Assembly: GCA_903834765.1 (NCBI GenBank)
Contig: CAILKE010000002.1
Coordinates: forward strand, 1 to 64,000
Direction of reading: 5' to 3'
Length of the DNA stretch: 64,000 bases
DNA from: an uncultured Bacteroidota bacterium
GTDB taxonomy: Bacteria > Bacteroidota > Bacteroidia > B-17B0 > Aurantibacillaceae
The translations under genes and the position numbers were made by a program. The number at the start of each line of letters is the position of its first letter. Position 1 is the stretch's first letter. Below the pieces are notes generated by a model, which did no database searches, was not told the origin of the DNA, and worked only from the letters and a program-made list of their open reading frames with translations. Of this stretch, positions 6,266 to 60,170 are shown one piece after another.

Positions 6266-7588
6266 TTATACTTTAGCTTCTTGTGCTTTTTTGATAATAG
6301 CTTTTATATTTTCAGTAGTAGTAGAGTTTGGTCTTTCAATAGCAGAACCAGTTGCTCTATCCCAAATTAAACTTGCTAATACACCTAAGGCACGTGATAC
6401 ACCGAATAGTACTGTATAAAAATCATACTCATGCATGCCATAGTGAACTAATAACGCACCAGAGTGGGCATCTACGTTAGGCCAAGGATTTTTAATTTTG
6501 CCTGTGCTTTCTAAAATTGGAGGCGCTACTTCATATACCATTTGTACGATTTCGCAAATGTTATCGTGTTTGATATATGTTTTATAAAAATCTTGTTGAG
6601 CAGTAAAGCGAGGATCTGTTTTACGCAATACTGCGTGACCATATCCAGGAACTACTTTTCCTTCCGCTAATGTTTGTTTGATGTATTCTGCAATTTGTTC
6701 TTTAGTTGGTAAACCACCACCTAAATTTTCTTTCAATTCCATGATCCAACTTAATACTTCTTGATTTGCTAAACCGTGTAACGGACCTGCTAAACCATTC
6801 ATACCAGCTGCAAACGCTAAATAAGGATCACTTAATGCCGAACCCACTAAGTGAGTAGCATGAGCAGAAACGTTTCCTCCTTCATGATCAACGTGTATAG
6901 TTAAATATAAACGCATTAAACGTTTCATATCAAACTCTTCATAACCTAACATGTGTGCGAAATTTGCTGCCCAGTCTAATTTATGATCTGGCTCAATATG
7001 AACTCCACCTTTGTATTTACGACGGTAGATATATGCTGCAATACGAGGTAAACGTGCAATTAAATTCATTGAATCTTCATACACATAATCCCAATAATCT
7101 TTTTTATTAATTCCCTTTGCATATGCTTTAGCAAACAAACTTTCTGTTTGCATAGCCATGATACCAACAACGAATTGTGTCATAGGATGCGCATCAGTTG
7201 GTAATTTTTCAATGACATCAAATACGTGTTTTGGAACATTGCTACGTTTTTGCCATTCGTTCGTAATAAAGCTAACATCATCTTGAGTTGGTAATTCACC
7301 TACTAACATTAAATAGAAAATGCCCTCTGGCAATGGTTCGGTGCCACCTGGTGCTTTTGGTAATTTCTCACGTAATTCAGGAATAGAGTAACCTCTGAAA
7401 CGAATGCCTTCTTCAGGGTCTAGTTTAGAAGTTTCTGTCACCATTCCAATCATCCCCTTCATACCTTGGTATGCCTGAGCTATAGTAATTTCACCTAATT
7501 TAACATCACCATGATTTTTGATGATGTCTTTTATTTCTGCAGCTAAAGGCACTGCTTTTTCGCGAAACTTATCTTTTAATCTGTCCAT
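6266..7588 (-). CDS. gltA: Citrate synthase, eukaryotic/mitochondrial-like type
   Basis: This enzyme condenses acetyl-CoA and oxaloacetate to citrate, the entry step of the TCA cycle. The three catalytic residues are visible in their motifs: His in GPLHGLANQEV, His in PGYGHAVLRKTDPRF and Asp in PNVDAHSGALL. The CoA-binding C-terminal motif DRATGSAIERPNS is also present. The sequence resembles mitochondrial citrate synthase rather than the E. coli hexameric type. I chose the ATG at 7588 (MDRLKDKF, 440 residues) over a TTG at 7609. It is followed by its own terminator and appears monocistronic. Confidence 0.95.
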   Translation of the reverse strand: MDRLKDKFREKAVPLAAEIKDIIKNHGDVKLGEITIAQAYQGMKGMIGMVTETSKLDPEEGIRFRGYSIPELREKLPKAPGGTEPLPEGIFYLMLVGELPTQDDVSFITNEWQKRSNVPKHVFDVIEKLPTDAHPMTQFVVGIMAMQTESLFAKAYAKGINKKDYWDYVYEDSMNLIARLPRIAAYIYRRKYKGGVHIEPDHKLDWAANFAHMLGYEEFDMKRLMRLYLTIHVDHEGGNVSAHATHLVGSALSDPYLAFAAGMNGLAGPLHGLANQEVLSWIMELKENLGGGLPTKEQIAEYIKQTLAEGKVVPGYGHAVLRKTDPRFTAQQDFYKTYIKHDNICEIVQMVYEVAPPILESTGKIKNPWPNVDAHSGALLVHYGMHEYDFYTVLFGVSRALGVLASLIWDRATGSAIERPNSTTTENIKAIIKKAQEAKV

Positions 7589-55995: not shown

Positions 55996-56180
55996 CAATT
56001 TTTATAGGAAATGCATAGGTTAGGTTCTTCCACATTTTTAGTGGAGTTAACTTTTATAAACAACTATATACATTGGTAATTGTGCGGTGGGCGTGGACGA
56101 ACGGAGCGAAATTTTGTTTTTATAGCAATTAGTGGGCAGGCTTTAAGAGCAAAAGAAAATAGAAAAATATTTCGTGTAAA

Positions 56181-57009: not shown

Positions 57010-58332
57010 TTAATTTCTTAAGAAATCGGTATTAGCAAAAATCATTAAAGCTAAAATAATAACCAAGCCAACATTATTCGCATAATAAACTACCTTATCC
57101 GAAACTTTTTTACCAGTAATCATTTCAAATAAAATAAACATAATGTATCCACCATCTAACATTGGTATTGGTAAGAAATTCATAAATGCTAAAATTAGAG
57201 ATAACATTCCTGTAAAAGCCCAGAAGTCATGCCAATCCCATTCTTCAGGCATTTGATCATACATGGTTTTAAATCCTCCAACTTGTTGATAAGCATCTTT
57301 TACGGTAAAAATGACCACAAACTGTTTGACTTGCATCACAATATTTTCAAAGCCATCTTTCATTCCTTGCGAAATAGAACCTAAAAAAGAGAATGATTGT
57401 GTTTCAATTGGATAAAACTGTTTGCGTTGAGGGAAGTATCCCAGTGCGCCTGCTGAGTCTAATTTAGCATTCATTTTAAGAGTATCTGCATTTCTTAAAA
57501 CAGAAATAGAAATTTCTTTACCACTATTTTTCAAAAATTCTCCTCTTAGTTCATCGTAAAAAGTAATAGGTGTTTCGTTAACCGCAATTAATTGATCATT
57601 CTTTTTTAATCCAATTTTCTGTGCTTCAGAACCTTGTTTGGCGCTATCTACAATCGCTAACATACGTGGCGAAATAAATGGGCTCTTTTTTAGATTTTTC
57701 AAAATGCGACTGATGTTATCATCTGTAACAGCAATAGTAACTGGGGCGCCATCTCTAGTCACTTCAATAGTTTTAGCTTTATTCATAATCACCGTAATTG
57801 TGACTCTGTTTAATGACTTGATTTCTTCACCATCAACCGATACAAGTTTATCCCCATTACGTAATCCCATTTTGTATGCAGTTGAATCCACAGCAATACC
57901 ATATTGTAATTTATTTACAGGTATTGTTTCTTTTCCCCATACAAATAAGATCATGATGTAAATAAAAAATCCTAAAATTAAATTCACAATAATACCACCC
58001 ATCATAACTAACAAGCGTTGCCAAGCTGGCTTAGAGCGCAATTCCCAAGGTTGAGGTGGAGAATCAATGATGGTTTTATCCATTTGCTCATCAACCATAC
58101 CTGCAATTTGCACGTAGCCACCAAAAGGAAACCAACCGATACCATATTCTGTATCTCCAATTTTCTTTTTGAAAATGGCAAAATTCATAATCCCAGCAAA
58201 GGGGAATAAGAAGTCGAAGAACAAATAAAATTTATCTACGCGTGTTCCGAATCTTTTAGCGAACCAAAAATGTCCAAATTCGTGAAGAGAAATTAAAATA
58301 GTAAGAGCTAAAAATAGTTGAAGAAATTTCAT
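57010..58332 (-). CDS. rseP: RIP metalloprotease RseP (site-2 protease)
   Basis: This 440-residue inner membrane zinc protease has the HExxH motif at residues 17-21 (SLHEFGHFWFAKRFG). Two PDZ-like regions in the periplasm follow (YKMGLRNGDKLVSVDGEEI and AQKIGLKKNDQLIAVNETPI). The third zinc ligand lies near residue 395 in FLPIPMLDGGYIMFILFEMI. It cuts membrane-spanning regulators or signal peptide remnants within the bilayer. dxr lies upstream in the same direction, a common Bacteroidota arrangement, but here a four-helix-bundle gene separates them. Confidence 0.93.
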   Translation of the reverse strand: MKFLQLFLALTILISLHEFGHFWFAKRFGTRVDKFYLFFDFLFPFAGIMNFAIFKKKIGDTEYGIGWFPFGGYVQIAGMVDEQMDKTIIDSPPQPWELRSKPAWQRLLVMMGGIIVNLILGFFIYIMILFVWGKETIPVNKLQYGIAVDSTAYKMGLRNGDKLVSVDGEEIKSLNRVTITVIMNKAKTIEVTRDGAPVTIAVTDDNISRILKNLKKSPFISPRMLAIVDSAKQGSEAQKIGLKKNDQLIAVNETPITFYDELRGEFLKNSGKEISISVLRNADTLKMNAKLDSAGALGYFPQRKQFYPIETQSFSFLGSISQGMKDGFENIVMQVKQFVVIFTVKDAYQQVGGFKTMYDQMPEEWDWHDFWAFTGMLSLILAFMNFLPIPMLDGGYIMFILFEMITGKKVSDKVVYYANNVGLVIILALMIFANTDFLRN

Positions 58333-58340
58333 ATTTTATT

Positions 58341-58360
58341 GATTTGATAATTTGGTAATG
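58341..58360. repeat. Left arm of an inverted repeat flanking the four-helix-bundle gene
   Basis: This 20-base arm pairs with 58771-58790 in inverted orientation, 19 of 20 positions identical. It ends 8 bases before the rseP start codon on the minus strand. Confidence 0.75.
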
Positions 58361-58382
58361 AGATGATTTGATGATTATATGA

Positions 58383-58742
58383 TTACTTTATTGTTTTATT
58401 TTTTGTGGATGCAATTATTTTAGATAGTACTTTTTGTATGGATTCAATTTCGTTGATTAATTCATTAGGGTTTGGATAGTTTTTAGATTTCTCGCAAAGC
58501 ATTAACCAATAGGTTGTCTCATCCGCTTCTTTTGCTGCTATTTTTAGTTTATGTATAAAATCATTTTTGCTTTCTGCATTCTGAGCCTCCCTTACGTTTG
58601 CTCCTATTGATGTGCCAGATCGAAATAATTGATTGGCTAAATTGAATTTTCTTTTCTCTTCTAGCAATTCTGTATATGAAATAATTTTAATTGCAAAATT
58701 AAACGTAAGCTCAACAATTAAGTTTGGTTTATTAGTTTGCAT
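58383..58742 (-). CDS. Four-helix-bundle (S23/IVP) protein
   Basis: This 119-residue all-helical protein matches the 23S rRNA intervening-sequence (S23) four-helix-bundle family. It has FNFAIKIISYTELLEEKRKFNLANQLFRSGTSIGANVREAQNAESKNDFIHKLKIAAKEADETTYWL, in which RSGTSIGANVREA and KEADET are the usual conserved parts. Related proteins also occur as Avd accessory proteins of diversity-generating retroelements, but no reverse transcriptase is here. Its function is unknown. It is inserted in the dxr-rseP run on the same strand and bracketed by an inverted repeat, which suggests it arrived as a small cassette. Confidence 0.88.
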   Translation of the reverse strand: MQTNKPNLIVELTFNFAIKIISYTELLEEKRKFNLANQLFRSGTSIGANVREAQNAESKNDFIHKLKIAAKEADETTYWLMLCEKSKNYPNPNELINEIESIQKVLSKIIASTKNKTIK

Positions 58743-58770
58743 TATTTTAATCGTTTAATTGTTTCATTTA

Positions 58771-58790
58771 CATCACCAAATTATCAAATC
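58771..58790. repeat. Right arm of an inverted repeat flanking the four-helix-bundle gene
   Basis: This arm is the reverse complement of 58341-58360 except at one position, and lies one base past the dxr stop codon on the minus strand. Confidence 0.75.
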
Positions 58791-58791
58791 A

Positions 58792-59967
58792 TCAAATCAA
58801 CTCCTTAGTCAGTATACGTGTTTCTTTATCGCATTGGATATAATCGTCGATAGTAGGAGTTTTTATAAAAGGCATTTTATCAAGTGCGGATGCAATCACA
58901 TCGCTCATTTGTAAAAATCCTATTTTATCTTCTAAAAATGCTTGCACTACTATTTCGTTTGATGCATTTAATATACAAGGCATATTGCCTCCTTTATCCA
59001 TTGCTTTAAATGCAAGTGCTAAGTTAGCAAAGGTTTCTGTATCTGGCTTCTCAAATGTGAGTTGTGGATAGTTAAAAAAATCAAAACGCGGGAAATTTGT
59101 TTTAATTCGTTGAGGATACGTAAATGCATATTGTATGGGCAGCTTCATATCAGGCAATCCCATTTGAGCTTTCATGCTGCCATCGGTAAATTGCACAATG
59201 CTGTGTACTATACTTTGCGGATGAACAATCACATCAATTTGTTCAGGCTTTAAATTAAATAACCATTTGGCTTCAATTACCTCAAGTCCTTTATTCATAA
59301 GGCTTGCAGAGTCAATAGTGATTTTAGCACCCATAACCCAATTAGGGTGTTTAAGTGCTTGTTCTTTTTTTACCGAAGCTAAAAAAGTTTTATCTTTTCC
59401 CCTAAATGGTCCACCCGAAGCTGTTAAATATATTTTTTCAATCTGATTGTCAAATTCACCAACCAAACATTGAAAAATGGCTGAGTGCTCTGAATCAACA
59501 GGGTAAAGATTCACCGCATTTTCATAAGCTAATTTAGTCACAATATCTCCTGCTACCACTAAGGTTTCTTTATTAGCTAAAGCTATGTTTTTTTTATATT
59601 TAATGGCATTTATGGTTGAAGCTAAGCCCGCATAACCTACAATAGAAGCTAAAACCATATCAATTGTTTCCATTTCTACTATTTGTTCAATTGATTTGGC
59701 ACCTGCAAAAACTTTGATATCATGTGTAAATAAAGCCTCTTTTACTTGCTGGTATTTGGCTTCATCGCCAATAACCACCGCATTAGGCTTAAATTCGATG
59801 GCTTGTTTTATCAGTAAATCAGCGTTGCTATGAGCCACTAAAACTTCTGCCTCAACTTCTTGAGGGTTTTCCCTGATAACATCAAGCGCTTGAGTGCCGA
59901 TGCTACCCGTACTTCCCATAATGGCAAGGCGTTTAGGTTGTTTTTCTGTGTGTTCGGTTTTTGTCAT
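58792..59967 (-). CDS. dxr: 1-deoxy-D-xylulose-5-phosphate reductoisomerase
   Basis: DXR makes 2-C-methyl-D-erythritol 4-phosphate with NADPH in the MEP isoprenoid pathway. The 391 residues show the nucleotide-binding start RLAIMGSTGSIGTQALDVI, then ALANKETLVVAGDIV, the metal-site PVDSEHSAIFQCL, LTASGGPFRG and NKGLEVIEAKWLF. All motifs and the length are standard. It is the first gene of a minus-strand run leading to rseP, and a palindromic repeat region lies upstream, between it and hemH. Confidence 0.95.
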   Translation of the reverse strand: MTKTEHTEKQPKRLAIMGSTGSIGTQALDVIRENPQEVEAEVLVAHSNADLLIKQAIEFKPNAVVIGDEAKYQQVKEALFTHDIKVFAGAKSIEQIVEMETIDMVLASIVGYAGLASTINAIKYKKNIALANKETLVVAGDIVTKLAYENAVNLYPVDSEHSAIFQCLVGEFDNQIEKIYLTASGGPFRGKDKTFLASVKKEQALKHPNWVMGAKITIDSASLMNKGLEVIEAKWLFNLKPEQIDVIVHPQSIVHSIVQFTDGSMKAQMGLPDMKLPIQYAFTYPQRIKTNFPRFDFFNYPQLTFEKPDTETFANLALAFKAMDKGGNMPCILNASNEIVVQAFLEDKIGFLQMSDVIASALDKMPFIKTPTIDDYIQCDKETRILTKELI

Positions 59968-60016
59968 TTTAAGAACGTAAAAATGGCGAAAATTTTAGGA
60001 TTACGGAAATATTCTT

Positions 60017-60158
60017 TTAACCGCAAAGAAGCAGAGAAAAGTCGCAAAGAACGGAGAGTTTAATCCACGTAAGGCATAAAACAAACAATAGTGAATAATC
60101 TTTGTTACTTCTTTGCGAACTCTCCTAAAAAAAATAACTTTGTGGTCTTTGCGGTTAA
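60017..60158. repeat. Palindromic intergenic repeat between dxr and hemH
   Basis: A 13-bp perfect inverted repeat (TTAACCGCAAAGA at 60017-60029, complement at 60146-60158) frames about 115 bases that contain further inverted matches: TCGCAAAGAA at 60042-60051 with 60109-60118, and GGAGAGTT at 60053-60060 with 60118-60125. It fills nearly the whole dxr-hemH spacer. The composition (AACCGCAAAGA with TCTTTGCGGTT) resembles non-coding palindromic elements scattered in many Bacteroidota genomes, an impression from memory rather than a search. Confidence 0.7.
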
Positions 60159-60170
60159 TTACCAAATACT

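Follow-up and report, generated by a model that had tools for sequence, protein, structure and literature searches.

An S23-type gene between inverted octamer arrays at a dxr-rseP junction: a likely protein-repeat element with subfamily-specific repeat units

Between dxr and rseP of an uncultured Bacteroidota bacterium lies a small S23-type gene bracketed by inverted repeats, which raises the question of what this gene and its repeats are and how they came to stand in the spacer. The preliminary description of the 64,000-nucleotide stretch of DNA that was analysed (the window) read them as a compact mobile cassette moved in trans and placed in an operon without disrupting genes; this interpretation is partly supported. 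It is likely that the S23 gene and its own repeats form a protein-repeat element resembling RAYT-REP systems, without a known transposase and akin to the intervening sequences (IVS) of 23S rRNA. S23/IVP proteins were said in 2016 to have no known function (PMC4990558), and no report of S23 genes with such arrays was found among the titles and abstract beginnings of open-licence PMC papers.

The S23-type gene (23S rRNA intervening-sequence protein / four helix bundle) occupies positions 58383-58742 of the minus strand and encodes 119 amino acids. In profile searches its product exceeded both curated cut-offs of the family, with 98.5 bits against 24 for TIGR02436 (E = 2.4e-28) and 81.8 bits against 33.8 for PF05635 (E = 5e-23), and its relatives in the PDB include 2rld (E = 5.5e-23) and, by profile search, 2gsc. 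Besides PF05635 no family was matched at E = 0.01, Y1 tyrosine (HUH) transposases included. The upstream neighbour dxr (58792-59967) and the downstream neighbour rseP, encoding an M50 peptidase (57010-58332), were assigned from reading frames and profile matches and lie on the same strand. As described previously, there is no transposase among the ORFs inside the cassette.

The arms had been given as a 20-bp inverted repeat, and 19 of 20 positions do match in inverted orientation between 58341-58360 (GATTTGATAATTTGGTAATG) and 58771-58790 (reverse complement GATTTGATAATTTGGTGATG). The repeat is longer than was noted: the pairing extends to 26 nt at 88% (58335-58360 / 58771-58796) or 29 nt at 83% in the repeat search. 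Both arms are tandem arrays of a degenerate octamer, RATKWGNN, and several registers pair between them because of this tandem structure. The 5′ arm (58771-58798, minus strand; array match 58772-58798) reads GATTTGAT GATTTGAT AATTTGGT GATG on the S23 sense strand, and the 3′ arm (58341-58375) is an inverted array with the plus-strand reading GATTTGAT AATTTGGT AATGAGAT GATTTGAT GAT and array matches at 58341-58367 and 58349-58375. An 18-nt arm pattern with up to three mismatches matched the window four times, three of them at the arms, against 0.77 ± 0.89 matches in 100 shuffles. The arms were thought to touch the dxr stop and the rseP start; the dxr stop codon indeed lies inside the 5′ arm, but the 3′ array lies 8 nt from the rseP ATG, or 2 nt by the longest inverted pairing, which extends to 58335.

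The site is empty in relatives. A search of 60 genomes (that of the window counted) located dxr in 56; the 30 best loci, L009-L038, were then read, the window being L009. For the 29 loci besides the window, tblastn gave no match to the window S23 in the recovered stretch (E 1e-3), and all 18 same-genus loci recovered besides the window lack the gene at the site, which agrees with a cassette placed between dxr and rseP and provides the empty allele for which a comparison of spacers had been proposed. The aligned spacer measures 14-25 nt in 14 of the 18, with several showing, by eye, 2 nt from stop to ATG, and 112, 132, 132 and 1361 nt in the remaining four; outside the genus, rseP was not found adjoining dxr in 2 of 11 loci. 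By eye, inverted arrays without a gene and with other motifs are present in the spacers of genomes G025 and G034, and half an array in that of G009. The same comparison was to reveal a target duplication; none is visible at the window site against the empty sites of relatives, and the junctions have diverged. The insertion is not clean: relative to most related genomes, dxr is two codons shorter at its end and the start of rseP is shifted inwards by about four codons.

The S23 family is present in 54 of the 60 genomes searched around the window's own (own included), with 1 to 10 matches per genome within the genus. Inverted arms were scored by comparing the left flank with the reverse-complemented right flank in a first set of 153 usable S23 genes from genomes G000-G059 (156 matches, three dropped for short or duplicate flanks), with 3060 cross-locus pairs as the null. 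The median score was 29 for the S23 genes and 16 for the cross-locus pairs. The 99th percentile of the latter (28) was exceeded by 79 of the 153 genes, and about half (74) are without strong arms by this score. The window locus scored 41; of the control ORFs, from which the window S23 was excluded, 2 of 127 scored above 28. The 79 strong 5′ arms have a median length of 32 nt and are periodic, with autocorrelation z values of 22 at lag 7, 19 at lag 14 and a weaker 5 at lag 8. Read along the S23 sense strand, 72 of them have more G than C and 4 have more C than G.

The window's genome has seven S23 genes, one of which (L006/L008, G000:C4:152983-153301) is split into two reading frames. A search of this genome for other copies of the arms around S23 genes had been proposed; five of the seven genes score above 28 (the others 28 and 26), and by eye the arm sequences differ between loci. 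One terminal inverted repeat common to all loci was rejected for this reason; instead of the single terminal repeat first described, the arms are arrays of 7- or 8-nt units with a motif set by the S23 subfamily.

The same controls bear on the reading of the arms as neutral slippage repeats of AT-rich spacers, unrelated to S23. Chance hairpins do occur in shuffled spacers (24 of 329 at a score of 34 or more), and heptamer repeats are known elsewhere: the TAACTGA heptamers of Beggiatoaceae, Cyanobacteria and some Bacteroidetes likewise form intergenic arrays near start codons, but with one motif, nearly always direct (PMC4679880), and the available text of that paper does not contain the term "four helix bundle". 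The cross-locus and ORF controls, together with the protein-arm correlation and the subfamily-specific co-occurrence across genomes described below, make this explanation highly improbable.

The 153 genes occupy 83 sites, with co-directional neighbours on both sides in 128 of 149 cases. In 86 armed loci of this co-directional kind, the median distance from the outer arm end is 0.5 nt to the upstream stop and 6.5 nt to the downstream start. Same-site and different-site labels were taken from matches of flanking ORFs, and shared sites at contig ends can be missed. At one site, S23 protein identity is 40% between L040 and L138 and 96% between L138 and L140, with flanking proteins more than 90% identical in both pairs; therefore, cassettes have been replaced or inserted repeatedly. 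The S23 protein is under strong purifying selection, with a median dN/dS of 0.06 in 34 same-site pairs, which are not independent (11 of 45 listed pairs were dropped, having no usable dS). Its median pI is 8.7.

Which motif and period the arms have depends on the S23 subfamily and not on the insertion site. In 101 loci with an arm score of at least 26 (4915 different-site pairs), arm similarity over the shuffled baseline was −0.25 below 30% S23 identity and 10.2 at 70% or more (8 pairs). The 85 different-site pairs at 55% identity or more gave a mean excess of 5.79, compared with 0.23 ± 0.47 and a maximum of 2.01 in 1000 permutations. A second set, 80 named loci kept among at least 579 relatives of the window's clade (79 usable, one dropped for short flanks), overlaps the first in neither S23 proteins nor 80-nt flanks. 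It is octameric, with z = 24 and 23 at lag 8 in two computations and 4.6 at lag 7, and its unit is A/G-A-T-T/G-T-G-N-N. Flank scores exceeded its own cross-locus 99th percentile in 11 of 79 loci and exceeded 28 in 51 of 79, compared with 13% of cross pairs. Because these loci share one motif, their cross-locus control is inflated; the set served to establish period and motif rather than locus specificity.

Both sets together (232 genes) were binned by identity to the window S23. At 55% or more (58 genes, the window's among them) there are 40 octamer and 1 heptamer loci, 3 unclear and 14 with weak arms; at 45-55% (34 genes), 10 octamer, 19 heptamer and 5 with weak arms; below 45% (140 genes), 9 octamer, 60 heptamer and 71 other, unclear or weak. 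The period agreed with that of the nearest different-site S23 in 124 of 146 cases (null 0.46, maximum 0.62), and in 58 of 79 in the first set alone. Loci titled outside the main group show, by eye, 7-nt arms (Akkermansiaceae L312, Peribacteria L321), 8-nt arms (Bifidobacterium L253), weak arms (Melioribacteraceae L318) or none (Chlorobiota L297); all five come from metagenome bins and are possible contaminants or mislabelled.

Arms at intergenic sites without S23 genes had been counted in advance against the cassette. Such arms do occur, but they co-occur with the matching S23 protein, like REPs beside RAYT. In the window's genome, 801 spacers away from S23 loci (1.06 Mb searched) were examined by motif matching to cassette arms. 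This was used because the hairpin score picks up shuffled spacers; as a detector of gene-less copies, the hairpin score alone was rejected since the shuffled spacers counted above reach its threshold of 34. Five of the seven own cassettes matched gene-less spacers, whereas of 94 cassettes taken from other genomes 6 did so (Fisher p = 1.1e-4), the G content of own arms being slightly lower (0.19 vs. 0.205 and 0.246). All 12 spacers matched by own cassettes lie between co-directional genes (584 of the 801 spacers are co-directional), and some gene-less arrays span nearly the entire stop-to-start gap.

Several individual arrays were also recorded. In the window, the spacer between dxr and the divergent hemH (named by eye) holds a gene-less inverted array of CGCAAAG-like units at 60014-60165 (TTAACCGCAAAG ... 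CTTTGCGGTTAA). An lpxD-like/lpxC-like spacer (L201 ~1500-1580, G000:C78:51330-51364; genes named by eye) shows a window-type octamer array at the stop codon and then a 3′ array of a different motif, and is read as a scar of hybrid or layered origin. Two spacers no more than about 2.7 kb from the S23 cassette L007 (G000:C39:4675-4813 and 6514-6684) carry its AAATCTT heptamer as a 3′ arm only, which suggests local spread.

Co-occurrence was studied in 149 draft genomes of the class, own included, with close S23 defined as E 1e-28 or better. Octamer arrays, the cassette's own arms being included in the counts, are present in 31 of 33 genomes with close S23, 30 of 73 with distant S23 only and 1 of 43 without S23 (p = 1.4e-12); the reversed octamer pattern, used as a control, matched in 11 of 149. 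The association holds within families (permutation P = 5e-5), with 15 of 17 mixed families up and 2 tied. The exceptions are G124 and G142, close-S23 genomes without octamer arrays; G158, also without arrays, falls just outside the close class at E = 2.2e-28 and was counted as distant. Genome G037 is an outlier: it has 328 matches to the octamer and 166 to RGCARNN, although for either query the best S23 match is a distant one.

Among the 124 octamer matches listed for eight close-S23 genomes, 9 lie within 1 kb of a listed S23 place, and S23 is absent from the stretches around all 23 arrays that were picked from the match listings of G171, G029 and G134 and read. Fifteen of the 23 stand between co-directional genes and 8 do not, 4 are inside called ORFs and only 6 are hairpins; therefore, neither a hairpin nor an operon is essential. 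The polarity of the arrays is fixed: facing pairs at the recovered loci, cassettes included, are G-rich-first in 39 cases and opposite in 1.

A second repeat, the GGCA heptamer RGCARNN, was compared with S23 of the L111 type. It is present in 19 of 26 genomes with this type and in 23 of 123 others (OR 11.8, cassette arms included in the counts); the reversed pattern matched in 16 of 149 genomes, and restriction to above-control genomes gave 18 of 26 and 21 of 123. With window-type S23 its association is slight (14 of 33 vs. 28 of 116, OR 2.3, p = 0.049) and is 7 of 23 vs. 16 of 100 (p = 0.14) when genomes with the L111 type are excluded. The octamer, in turn, is associated with window-type S23 (OR 42.5), and in the 149 genomes no association with the L111 type was found (14 of 26 vs. 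48 of 123, OR 1.8, p = 0.19). Two repeats and two S23 subfamilies thus form a double dissociation: each repeat tracks its own subfamily, the second more weakly within families (permutation P = 0.023; mixed families 7 up, 3 tied, 3 down).

Part of these data would suit a different reading, in which S23 is a host regulator of translation or mRNA processing that binds at the scattered arrays, regulates itself through the cassette arms and does not move, nor do the arrays. The low dN/dS, the basic protein and the placement of cassettes, and of gene-less arrays that match them, at the stops and starts of genes in co-directional order point in this direction. A regulator of this kind is at odds with the variable number of S23 matches within the genus, a window site occupied in none of the 18 relatives, the 8 of 23 gene-less arrays between non-co-directional genes and an arm motif that follows the protein between sites; this reading is unlikely, with a modest chance of being right.

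The movement in trans proposed in the preliminary description can be put more specifically as mobilization of cassette and arrays by another element, e.g., a Y1 (RAYT-type) transposase, with S23 a passenger. Y1_Tnp is common (114 of 149 genomes) and linked to arrays overall, which occur in 57 of 114 genomes with Y1 and 5 of 35 without it. Given S23, the association is lost (56 of 95 with Y1 vs. 5 of 11 without), arrays are found in 1 of 19 Y1 genomes without S23 and in 3 of 3 genomes with close S23 and no Y1, and the repeat type follows the S23 subfamily, so that a passenger role for S23 appears improbable. Neither the Y1 transposase nor reverse transcriptase is supported as the array driver by the stratified counts; for reverse transcriptase (RVT_1), no association with arrays was found in the 149 genomes (21 of 48 vs. 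41 of 101).

The latter result also bears on an RNA route, in which pairing of the arms within the operon mRNA forms a stem for cleavage by RNase III and S23 spreads via RNA, in the manner of the 23S rRNA IVS. The rRNA IVS of Coxiella burnetii has an S23 ORF between complementary ends, in the loop of a 28-bp terminal stem, is cleaved by RNase III in vitro and carries variable GACAGAT heptamers directly before the ORF, according to the available part of the source (PMC4990558), and the window arms pair in the predicted fold. The cassette RNA is predicted to fold weakly (z = −1.78, with 5 of 100 shuffles doing equally well), many gene-less arrays are single-armed or between non-co-directional genes, and reverse transcriptase does not predict arrays; we give this route a small chance. 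Avd of diversity-generating retroelements is related in that PF05635 is described as Avd-like in sequence and structure (PMC10053308), but no link of the arrays here to reverse transcriptase presence was found in the 149 genomes.

The preferred reading, a RAYT-REP-like pair of S23 and its repeats, can be compared with both known systems. Like an IVS, the window cassette has an S23-family ORF between inverted repeats, and the tandem heptamers upstream of the Coxiella ORF, with a strain-variable copy number (PMC4990558), would fit the same anatomy. Unlike an IVS, it lies between the protein genes dxr and rseP, not in 23S rRNA; there are numerous gene-less satellites, and purifying selection acts strongly on the S23 genes here, in contrast to the reductive evolution described for the Coxiella ORF. 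With RAYT-REP/REPIN systems, as far as these are described in PMC3116915, it has in common a single protein gene flanked by its repeats, gene-less inverted extragenic copies of these repeats in the genome and an association of protein and repeat, here of repeat type with protein subfamily across genomes, weaker for the second motif within families. It differs in the protein, an S23 four-helix bundle instead of a Y1 transposase, and in the repeats, which are arrays of 7-8 nt units and not REP palindromes.

In this RAYT-REP-like scheme, the window locus would be one copy of a minimal element, an S23 gene between inverted arrays of its subfamily's unit, the octamer RATKWGNN here and various heptamers elsewhere. 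The encoded protein is a small and basic bundle of helices that most likely recognises the unit flanking its gene; gene-less arrays elsewhere in the genome would be satellites of the matching S23. We infer physical binding and the movement of cassettes and satellites from these patterns; strand exchange would be carried out by host or other enzymes, perhaps through a hairpin in single-stranded DNA or RNA. The S23 relative XCC0516 of X. campestris is described as a homopentamer or homopentameric ring (PMC4990558), and 2rld and 2gsc have five chains each, so perhaps a pentameric ring reads regularly spaced units, one per subunit. A broader proposal is tentative: that S23 four-helix bundles may be a large unrecognised class of sequence-specific repeat-recognition proteins, each subfamily reading its own 7- or 8-nt unit and driving the spread of arrays and genes into stop-start junctions without a known transposase, with rRNA IVS as members that landed in rRNA. 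The pairing of S23 subfamily and repeat unit amounts to a concrete, testable binding code; it would account for a group of the intergenic repeats seen in these genomes and connects the IVS of rRNA with a wider family of elements. A protein-repeat pair that moves without a recognised transposase would represent a new mode of DNA mobility.

Palindromes of other kinds are also present in this genome. A 162-bp imperfect palindrome in a co-directional gap (G000:C4:258328-258489, score 103) is possibly a MITE, and a repeated palindromic element, not of the 7/8-nt type, is found at 56095-56155 of the window and at G000:C4:135119-135198, the two copies sharing, by eye, ACGAACGG.GCGAAATTTTGTTTTTAT.
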